64,000 nucleotides of DNA, taken from Geothrix edaphica. Lineage in GTDB: Bacteria; Acidobacteriota; Holophagae; Holophagales; Holophagaceae. The stretch covers positions 434,001 through 498,000 of the forward strand of contig NZ_BSDC01000003.1 of assembly GCF_030268045.1 (NCBI RefSeq), written 5' to 3'. Position 1 is the first letter of the stretch, and every line of letters begins with the position of its first letter. The notes beneath the pieces were generated by a model. It saw only the letters and a program-made list of their open reading frames with translations. It was not told the DNA's origin and made no database searches. Of the stretch, positions 14,646 to 17,364 are shown piece by piece. A program made the translations under genes and the position numbers.

Positions 14646-15206
14646 ATGCCGAAGATCGCCGAGATCGAATACACCCCCAACCCCAACGCCGTGAAGTTCG
14701 TGCTGAAGGAAGCCGTGGCCCTGGGCTTCCCCAAGTCCTTCCCCAACGCGGAGACCGCCGAGCACGACGAGCTGGCCAAAGGCCTCTTCGCCGTGGGGAA
14801 CGTCACCTCGGTCTTCATGCAGGACAAGTTCCTCACCGTCACCAAGACCGACGACAAGGGCTGGCCCGAGATGCTGCCCTTGCTGGCCGCGCCCATCCGC
14901 GCTGCGGCGGGTGCCGGTGGCGGGCAGGCCCCCGCGGCCGGAGGACCCCGGGTCTTCAGCAAGGTGGACGACGAGAACGACCCCATGCTCAAGGACATCC
15001 GCATGGTGCTGGAGAGCGCCATCCTGCCCGCCCTGGCGGCGGACGGCGGCGGCCTCGAGCTGATCGGTCGCCACGAGAAGCAGGTCATGATCCGGTATAT
15101 GGGCGCCTGTGGCAGCTGCCCCGCCAGCCTCACCGGCACCCTGGTGGCCATCGAGGGCATGCTCCAGAAGGAAGTGGACCCCGAGATCGTGGTCATCTCG
15201 GTCTAA
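14646..15206 (+). CDS. nfu: Nfu-type Fe-S carrier protein (Nfu N-domain plus NifU C-domain)
   Basis: This 186-aa protein has two domains. The N-terminal Nfu domain (EYTPNPNAVKFVLKEAV) is followed by an Ala/Gly-rich linker around residues 85-100. The C-terminal NifU domain carries the cluster-binding CxxC in GACGSCPASLTGTL. It carries 4Fe-4S clusters from the SUF scaffold to target proteins. It lies two bases after sufU and is the last gene of the operon. Its TAA stop is immediately followed by the inverted repeat of the 15.2-15.5 kb element, so that element may replace or contribute the 3' end of the transcript. Confidence 0.93.
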   Translation: MPKIAEIEYTPNPNAVKFVLKEAVALGFPKSFPNAETAEHDELAKGLFAVGNVTSVFMQDKFLTVTKTDDKGWPEMLPLLAAPIRAAAGAGGGQAPAAGGPRVFSKVDDENDPMLKDIRMVLESAILPALAADGGGLELIGRHEKQVMIRYMGACGSCPASLTGTLVAIEGMLQKEVDPEIVVISV

Positions 15207-15475
15207 GAGTGCGTTTTAGAATTCCCGCGAGCCGCGACGGTGGTCAGCCGCGTGATCCAGCAAGGAAGCGTGCGCAGGGCGATGCGGGACATCGTCCAAG
15301 CGCGGTGACACAGCTGGGCGCGCGGCTGGCCGCCGTCCCTCCGGGCTGGGCCGGCGGGCGTCGCCTGGCGTCGTCCCGGGCCCTAAGCATGGAACCACCA
15401 TGCCTGCGGGCCCTCTCCTAGCCATGCTCGCCCGGCGCTCCCAGCGCGGTCCGTGCGAATTCTAAAACACACTCT
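15206..15475. mobile_element. Non-coding element with terminal inverted repeats (MITE-like or structured RNA)
   Basis: The left end GAGTGCGTTTTAGAATTC (15207-15224) and the right end (15457-15474) are inverted copies with one mismatch; one more pair (A/T) extends them. A further 16 bases inward match at about 10 positions, so the repeat is about 34 bp and imperfect. The interior is GC-rich and holds a hairpin around 15376-15414 (GGGCCC, GCATGG, AACCA, CCATGC, GGGCCC). Both strands have only a 70-residue frame without recognisable protein features. Flanking bases TAA and TGA are both of TNA form but not identical, so no clear target duplication is shown. The size and ends suggest a MITE derived from an IS, or alternatively an RNA closed by a long stem. 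Confidence 0.55.
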
Positions 15476-15606
15476 GAAGGCTGCCCGGCCCTTTTTCCTG
15501 GCCTCTCAAGGCATTCCCCGATAACCTGTCCGTTCTGCCGGACTTCGTGTGCCGGGATTCCAGCGCACCACCAGAGCGTGGGCGCAACCAAAAGAGGTGG
15601 ACTTAC

Positions 15607-17364
15607 ATGTCCAAGTTAGAAGCAATCATCAAGGGCCTGGGCTCCAAGCAGATGGGCCGCATCACCGTGCTCGACTCGGGGTATATCGAGGACGGCACCG
15701 AGGAAGGCCAGGAGTTCATGGCCGCGCTGCAGGGCGAGACCCGCGGCCTGCGTGAGGAAGAGGTCGTGCGTGGCGTCGTCGTGGAGATCCGCGGCAAGGA
15801 CGTCATCATCGACATCGGCTACAAGGGTTCGGGCACCGTCAATCTCGACGAGTTCAACAACCCTGACGGCACCCAGGGCGTCCAGGTGGGCGACGTGGTC
15901 GAAGTGCTGCTCGAGATGCTCGAGGACGCCAACGGCAACGTGCGCCTCAGCCGCGAACGCGCCGAGAAGATGAAGATCTGGGACGAGGTCGAGAAGGCCT
16001 TCCGCTCCAACATGACCGTGCACGGCACGGTGCTCGAGAAGGTCAAGGGCGGCCTGGCCGTGGACATCGGCATCCGCGCCTTCCTGCCCGGCAGCCAGGT
16101 GGACATGAAGCCCGTCCGCAACCTGGATCCCTACCTCGGCAAGTCCTTCGACATGAAGGTCATCAAGGTCAACCGCCGCCGGGGCAACATCGTGCTGTCC
16201 CGCAAGCTGTTCCTCGAGACCATCAACGCGAGCCTGAAGGAAGAGACCCTCGCGGGCCTCGAGGAAGGCAAGCTGGTCGAGGGCACCATCAAGAACATCA
16301 CCGAGTACGGCGCCTTCGTCGACCTCGGCGGTGTGGACGGCCTGCTGCACATCACCGACATGTCCTGGGGCCGGCTCAACCACCCCAGCGAGATGTTCCA
16401 GGTGGGCGACAAGGTCGAAGTGGCCGTGCTCAAGTACGACAAGGACACCGAGCGCGTCAGCCTCGGCTACAAGCAGAAGTTCCCGGATCCCTGGCTCTCC
16501 GTCGAGGAGCGCTACCCCATCCAGGCCACCGTCAAGGGCAAGGTCGTCTCGATCACCGACTACGGCGCATTCGTGGAGCTGGAGCCCGGCATCGAGGGCC
16601 TGGTCCACGTCTCCGAGATGAGCTGGACCAAGAAGGTCAAGTCCGCCAAGGGCATGGTCAACCTGGGCGACCAGGTCGAGGCCCTGATCCTGCAGGTGGA
16701 CAGCGAGAACCGCCGCATCAGCCTCGGCATGAAGCAGATCACCCCCAACCCCTGGATGGCCATCGCCGAGAAGTACCAGCCCGGCATGATCGTCACGGGC
16801 ACCGTGCGCAACATCACGGAGTTCGGCGCCTTCGTCGAGCTGGAAGAGGGCATCGACGGCCTCATCCACGTGTCCGACTTCAGCTGGACCAAGAAGATCA
16901 AGCACCCCGGCGAGATCGTGAAGAAGGGCGACGAAGTCACCGCCAAGGTCCTCAACCTGGACCCCCTGGCCCAGCGCATGAGCCTCGGCGTGAAGCAGAT
17001 GGAGCCCAATGTCTGGGAGATCTTCTTCGAGAACCACAATGTGGGCGCCGTGCTCACCGGCAAGATCGCCCGCCTGACCGACTTCGGCGCCTTCGTCGAC
17101 CTCGGCGACGGCATCGAGGGCCTGGTGCACGTCTCCGAGCTGAGCCGCAAGCGGGTGGAGGACATCCAGAAGGAGTTCGCCGCCGGCCAGGAGCTCACCA
17201 TGAAGATCGTGAAGCTCGATCCCACCGAGCGCCGCATCGGCCTCTCCGTCAAGCAGCTGGAGCAGGACATGGAGCGCGGCGACATGGAAGCCGCCAAGGC
17301 CCGTCAGCCCGAGTTCAAGAAGGCGACCCTGGCTGACGCCTTCAACAAGGCGGAACGGGAGTAG
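15607..17364 (+). CDS. rpsA: 30S ribosomal protein S1
   Basis: This 585-aa S1 has six S1 RNA-binding domains: VVRGVVVEIRGKDVIIDIG, VHGTVLEKVKGGLAVDIG, GTIKNITEYGAFVDLG, GKVVSITDYGAFVELE, GTVRNITEFGAFVELE and GKIARLTDFGAFVDLG. The first two are more divergent and bind the ribosome; the last four bind mRNA. The ATG at 15607 follows AGAGGTGG. About 130 bases of leader after the inverted-repeat element contain a weak -10-like GATAAC and a small GTCCG/CGGAC stem; S1 autoregulation through the leader is known in E. coli but not shown here. It is the only gene of its transcript, closed by a good terminator. Confidence 0.97.
   Translation: MSKLEAIIKGLGSKQMGRITVLDSGYIEDGTEEGQEFMAALQGETRGLREEEVVRGVVVEIRGKDVIIDIGYKGSGTVNLDEFNNPDGTQGVQVGDVVEVLLEMLEDANGNVRLSRERAEKMKIWDEVEKAFRSNMTVHGTVLEKVKGGLAVDIGIRAFLPGSQVDMKPVRNLDPYLGKSFDMKVIKVNRRRGNIVLSRKLFLETINASLKEETLAGLEEGKLVEGTIKNITEYGAFVDLGGVDGLLHITDMSWGRLNHPSEMFQVGDKVEVAVLKYDKDTERVSLGYKQKFPDPWLSVEERYPIQATVKGKVVSITDYGAFVELEPGIEGLVHVSEMSWTKKVKSAKGMVNLGDQVEALILQVDSENRRISLGMKQITPNPWMAIAEKYQPGMIVTGTVRNITEFGAFVELEEGIDGLIHVSDFSWTKKIKHPGEIVKKGDEVTAKVLNLDPLAQRMSLGVKQMEPNVWEIFFENHNVGAVLTGKIARLTDFGAFVDLGDGIEGLVHVSELSRKRVEDIQKEFAAGQELTMKIVKLDPTERRIGLSVKQLEQDMERGDMEAAKARQPEFKKATLADAFNKAERE

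Follow-up and report, generated by a model that had tools for sequence, protein, structure and literature searches.

The spacer between nfu and rpsA in Geothrix edaphica carries a non-coding element with inverted ends that begins exactly where nfu stops, and this raises the question of whether the element is mobile DNA or a structured RNA, and how it came to lie precisely at the end of an operon. A preliminary description of the 64,000-nucleotide stretch of DNA analyzed here (the window) had reported a 270-bp element of this kind, and the element is real. It does start at the first base after the nfu TAA, but the bounds then given, 15206-15475, take in one base of each flanking triplet: 15206 is the final A of the nfu TAA and 15475 is the T of a downstream TGA, and the element proper therefore occupies 15207-15474 (268 bp), with TAA on its left flank and TGA on its right. 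The features of the element are collected in Table 1.

Table 1. Features of the element and its flanks, in window coordinates; R1 is a covariance model of one hairpin arm.
Feature	Position	Strand	Evidence
Left TNA copy; TAA is the present nfu stop codon	15204..15206	+	Empty site GTC-TGA-AGG in relative G036; TNA flanks in 83 copies
Left terminal inverted repeat, IS5 (GAG-end) type	15207..15224	+	GAGTGCGTTTTAGAATTC; 15/18 identical to the ends of the full IS5_3 element L351
Terminal stem P1, 5' strand	15207..15236	+	Compensatory changes support 24/25 pairs
Hairpin arm P2, the most conserved part	15236..15337	+	R1 match 15234-15345, 103 bits, E 1.2e-19, with the window copy itself in the R1 training set
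Central mini-hairpin CCTCCGG, 7 nt, center of the inverted dimer	15338..15344	.	
Hairpin arm P3, inverted homologue of P2	15345..15445	-	R1 match on the minus strand 15337-15447, E 2.9e-7
Terminal stem P1, 3' strand	15445..15474	+	
Right terminal inverted repeat	15457..15474	-	Reverse complement GAGTGTGTTTTAGAATTC
Right TNA copy; TGA is the ancestral nfu stop codon	15475..15477	+	Empty site in G036

The inverted repeat of 18 bp with one mismatch was found as described (15207-15224 and 15457-15474), and an imperfect extension was also seen, although it reaches 31 nt at 84% complementarity rather than the proposed 34 bp or so. The 18-mer end occurs twice in the window, at the two ends of the element, compared with 0.00 occurrences expected from shuffles. 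The predicted fold of 15205-15477 gave z scores of -9.1 on the plus strand and -6.5 on the minus strand against 200 shuffles. As had been stated, there is no convincing reading frame inside, the two small internal ORFs (70 and 69 amino acids) having no Pfam match, and the element ends about 130 bases before rpsA, whose ATG is at 15607. In being short, free of a transposase gene and bounded by terminal inverted repeats, the element has the makeup of a MITE.

A BLAST search of the genome itself (six contigs, 3.16 Mb) returned dispersed relatives of the element, and the 17 copies extracted fold alike; most are ~270 bp long, and two have extra inserts. The R1 model found 19 copies in this genome and between 1 and 49 in each of 41 genomes out of the 47 of the genus, so the further copies that the preliminary description had suggested looking for do exist, both at home and in relatives. 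Beyond Geothrix, the R1 arm was also detected in a sister genus and further Acidobacteriota families, with the same length and plan but other ends. Plasmid and phage records held no match to the element, and a search for an autonomous copy, with a gene enclosed by its arms, found none, the odd copies having a longer or a missing P3.

That these copies have moved is seen at sites where relatives lack them. In the close relative G036, the spacer between nfu and rpsA is shorter by exactly 271 bp (GTCTGAAGG compared with GTCTAA-element-TGAAGG), reading GTC-TGA-AGGCTG where the window reads GTC-TAA-(268 bp)-TGA-AGGCTG, and the joined flanks of nearly all other copies in the genome have an uninterrupted match in G007, G036, G006, G017 or G002. 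Because the sites are empty in relatives, the empty site is ancestral and the element was inserted. The earlier suggestion of a MITE is borne out by the numerous copies at unrelated positions, by the relatives with empty sites and, as set out below, by short target duplications and IS-type ends.

Several observations on individual copies accompany these results. Genome G018, which has no DDE_Tnp_1 match, underwent a recent burst: at least nine of its copies (L316-L324) are near-identical and have the ends GGAGCTGGAACGGAATAATCG. The copy L186 of G007 occupies the same insertion site as L011 of the present genome and L200 of G053, with the element in the opposite orientation in G007. Four copies (L172, L203, L229 and L231) form a subfamily with a P3 arm ~140 nt longer, L191 has lost P3, and L196, L198, L200 and L209 have unexplained extra length. 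In L004 and L014 of the present genome (regions C2:447744 and C1:1463810), a small palindrome of the GTATCACCTTTGGTGATAC / GTATCGCCTCCGGCGATAC type is nested in an arm of the element, which suggests a second-level insertion.

The spacer itself has features apart from the element. A weak hairpin followed by T5 lies just downstream of the element and is also present in the empty site, and a promoter and terminator scan of the window found nothing on the relevant strand. The leader before rpsA, 15534-15607 (GTTCTGCCGGACTTCGTGTGCCGGGATTCCAGCGCACCACCAGAGCG...), is almost identical in the genus genomes with a readable spacer, is far better conserved than the rest of the spacer and may be a ribosomal-protein leader. 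At four nfu loci (L049, L052, L063 and L075, in G007, G037, G032 and G001, respectively), a partial second copy of the nfu 3' end lies directly behind the stop codon.

Turning to the point of insertion, the flanking 3-mers were identical in 22 of 83 copies, compared with 9.1 expected when the right flanks were shuffled, an excess that is independent of the anchoring frame. TNA stood on both sides in 39 of the 83 copies, with the middle base equal in 22 of those 39; as copies were anchored at the A-G boundary on the left and the C-T boundary on the right, the frame chosen dictates in part the outer A and T of these triplets. Elements of the IS1031 subgroup within the IS5 family are described as targeting TNA with a 3-bp direct repeat (PMC12016507), and across the family described here the same 3-bp TNA duplication was found, the window copy being an imperfect example (TAA/TGA). 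The left and right TNA copies frequently differ and are identical in only four of the nine near-identical copies in G018. The targets of GGG-ended copies look more like TA or CTAG. Insertion without duplication, in an IS110- or HUH-like manner, had been suggested by the first empty sites and was dropped because TNA occurs on both sides above chance in the 83 copies.

The same preference accounts for the position of the element. With genes called by a simple composition rule, 41 of 69 neighboring gene 3' ends are no more than 5 bases away from an element, compared with 12 of 91 gene 5' ends. Thus, the observation that the insertion coincides exactly with an operon end was right, but it describes a general property of the family rather than of this locus: the elements sit in stop codons because TAA and TGA are themselves TNA. 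In the window, the TGA stop codon of nfu was the target, and nfu is undamaged because its reading frame still terminates at the left TNA copy, which now reads TAA, with the TGA left on the far side. The TNA preference therefore explains how exact placement at stop codons can occur in GC-rich genomes without the breakage of genes.

All of the copies are laid out on one plan, a terminal stem P1 (~30 bp) followed by an arm P2 (~100 nt), a 7-nt palindromic hairpin and an arm P3, with some variation in arm length and an occasional missing arm. When reverse-complemented, P3 is recognized by R1, the model of P2 (E values down to 1e-9 in sister copies), and the element is thus an inverted dimer. In an alignment of 70 copies from one genus, 97.0% of cells were paired, and 63 of 83 pairs had changes on both sides. 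None of 500 shuffles, which leave the relatedness of the copies in place, reached as high a value, and sliding the partners by 1 to 3 columns, a control that also keeps relatedness, lowered pairing to 36-47%. Two G.U pairs in P2 (alignment columns 74-93 and 75-92) are nearly invariant, a hint of sequence recognition at these positions, and these pairs and the unpaired bases of internal loops are conserved across copies that have different ends.

The ends, on the other hand, resemble those of known insertion sequences. The ends of the window copy (GAGTGCGTTTTAGAATTC and GAGTGTGTTTTAGAATTC) agree at 15 and 16 of 18 positions, respectively, with the complete IS ends GAGTGTGTCTTAAAATTC in Eubacterium plexicaudatum, which a scan with the window end as a permissive pattern returned among the matches listed; the IS concerned (L351, 1239 bp) has two overlapping ORFs that match NCBIfam IS5_3 (NF033580). 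Sister copies in this and related genomes share 17/18 end positions with IS5_3 elements from elsewhere in Geothrix (GGGTCTGTTTTCAAAGT), others have ends 15/18 identical to IS5_3 elements of the genus (GAGTGCCTAACAA), and at the genus locus L239 an IS with an IS5 transposase has GAG... ends like those of the family. The window element thus has the GAG... ends of IS5 elements of the IS1031 subgroup, and the ends of another copy, L010, are 17/18 identical to those of an IS1182-family element. Unrelated small elements of 160-282 bp (L339, L348, L379, L389, L394, L411 and L415) also share the ends GAGYGTGTCTTAAAATTC, their hosts being Methanosarcina, E. plexicaudatum and other genomes.

A mobilizing IS outside the window had been proposed, and this has been right so far; the genome itself (G000) also lacks a matching transposase of the families searched by profile, namely, DDE_Tnp_1 (PF01609), IS5_3 (NF033580) and IS1182 (NF033551), and so the mobilizer is one that we infer. 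The Y1 domain of RAYT (PF01797) had no match in this genome and was found in 2 of 21 genus genomes tested, and RVT_1 had no match in this genome or in most of the copy-rich relatives. A resident RAYT/Y1, reverse transcriptase or DDE_Tnp_1 was accordingly set aside as the mobilizer. Most of these families were also absent from several copy-rich relatives, and one relative with 49 copies had no DDE_Tnp_1, IS5_3 or IS1182 match. An autonomous partner in the same genome is usual for an active MITE but is dispensable for a stranded one, and the window copy is probably stranded, immobile at present in its own genome. The variety of ends within one genome is too great for a single transposase to account for all of them.

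We compared the ends with the bodies that they enclose. Mismatches in the 18-bp ends numbered 0.82 within an element and 7.70 between elements. Bodies were at least 90% identical in 403 pairs of copies, and in 65 of these pairs each of the two ends differed at no fewer than 6 of 16 positions. Ends were compared pairwise at the best offset, a procedure that replaced single-linkage clustering, which had merged nearly all end types. The clearest case is that of L216, from the present genome, and L199, from Geothrix fuzhouensis, in which bodies that are 98.1% identical carry, on both sides, GAACGCCAAGCCAAGCCC and GAGGTCGTAACAATACCC, respectively. Conversely, the two copies with IS1182-type ends GGAGCCYGTCCAAGTA (L010 and L326) have bodies only 62% identical to each other, and the body of L326 is 83% identical to that of an IS5-ended copy. 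As a pattern in the aligned sequences, then, both ends have been exchanged in concert. Candidate routes are recombination followed by template switching in the hairpin and conversion of the body between resident MITEs.

Taken together, these results make it very probable that the window element is a MITE moved in trans by an IS5-family (IS1031-type) transposase and inserted at TNA. Such a transposase would recognize the ~18-bp ends (GAG...CTC), excise or copy the element and place it into a TNA triplet, duplicating these 3 bp. The body would persist because pairing of its two halves keeps the ends and arms complementary, and this complementarity might be kept by template-switch correction in the hairpin, by a role in holding the ends together for the transposase, or by both. 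We give about even weight to a broader proposal, that the folded body acts as a selfish module spread among the Acidobacteriota and has repeatedly taken up two matching ends from transposon families unrelated to one another (at least IS5 and IS1182). Many transposases would then move one non-autonomous parasite, its palindromic build allowing the two ends to change jointly.

The preliminary description had offered a different reading, a structured RNA, and a structured RNA gene or a cis-acting element of an mRNA 3' end would be in keeping with the very strong predicted fold, the covariation and the two nearly invariant G.U pairs in P2. A strand that acts as RNA would be expected to tolerate G-U pairs but not A-C mismatches, yet G-U occurred in 36 pairs and A-C likewise in 36 (108 and 82 cells, respectively, outside the two exceptional pairs), so that, apart from those two, covariation is strand neutral. 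The copies lie in sense orientation to flanking genes in 23 cases and in antisense orientation in 22, and they are found at both the 5' and the 3' ends of genes. The parity of G-U and A-C and the random orientation imply that pairing is maintained at the level of DNA. Moreover, an Rfam search with the window copy and 17 loci with sister copies gave nothing over the element (a SAM riboswitch at L008 1282-1385 and a fluoride riboswitch at L268 1326-1386 lie near two copies), P3 is the reverse complement of P2, so that no single transcript has two equal arms, and the genome has no RVT_1 reverse transcriptase such as a retron-like noncoding RNA would call for. We consider an RNA function highly improbable; a role at transcript 3' ends was dropped for want of an orientation bias, and the orientation counts lend no support to the terminator role once proposed for the element.

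Alternatively, the element might be a palindrome that moves in a folded, single-stranded form through a structure-specific enzyme, which recognizes the paired terminal stem and not its sequence, as REPINs are moved by RAYT and attC sites by the integron integrase. This would fit a terminal stem whose sequence varies while its pairing stays, arms that fold and covary, and copy-rich genomes without a matching IS5-type transposase, but it is an unlikely account of a family in which the TNA duplication implies a staggered double-strand cut, the ends are 15-17/18 identical to real IS5 and IS1182 ends, and Y1 domains are as scarce as described above. A less distant possibility, although one that we still hold to be improbable, is an ordinary IS5-derived MITE with a functionless palindromic middle, kept complementary solely by a mutational process, template switching in hairpin replication. 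This is a sub-case of the IS5-type MITE reading and differs from it in what the body is for. Strand-neutral covariation and the variable, sometimes missing arms agree with it, whereas mutation alone does not explain why unpaired loop bases and the P2 G.U pairs are conserved across different ends, or why the R1 arm recurs in other families of the phylum.

With IS1031-subgroup elements and the MITEs derived from them, the Geothrix element shares GAG...CTC ends (15-17/18 identical to IS5_3 ends), a TNA target with a 3-bp duplication, the lack of an ORF and numerous intergenic copies. Unlike theirs, its body does not, as far as we can see, derive from an IS5 element by internal deletion; it is a conserved inverted dimer of hairpins and is common to copies with non-IS5 ends. 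L010 and L326 are similar to IS1182-derived MITEs in their ends, but their bodies belong to the same superfamily as those of IS5-ended copies and are not closest to each other. Like the REPINs and BIMEs associated with RAYT, the element consists of two inverted palindromic hairpins in many intergenic copies, but its arms are far larger, its terminal inverted repeats are long, it is associated with a TNA duplication, and no RAYT was detected in its genome. The QMITEs of Coxiella and other structured bacterial MITEs (PMC5896051, PMC10969869) likewise have terminal inverted repeats around a core, the transcript of which would fold into a very stable stem-loop. In the open literature searched, outside which most subscription journals lie, we found no report of a single core conserved throughout a phylum whose ends are exchangeable among IS families. 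A MITE family is normally defined by its ends and tied to a single parent IS; here the conserved part is the middle, and it is the ends, left and right together, that differ between bodies of 98% identity. If this is confirmed, a non-autonomous element can outlive its transposase host and switch to another, which would explain the abundance of copies in genomes without a detectable parent IS. The window element is thus an IS5-type MITE within a superfamily that, in contrast to MITE families defined by their ends, has a conserved folded body and exchanged ends.
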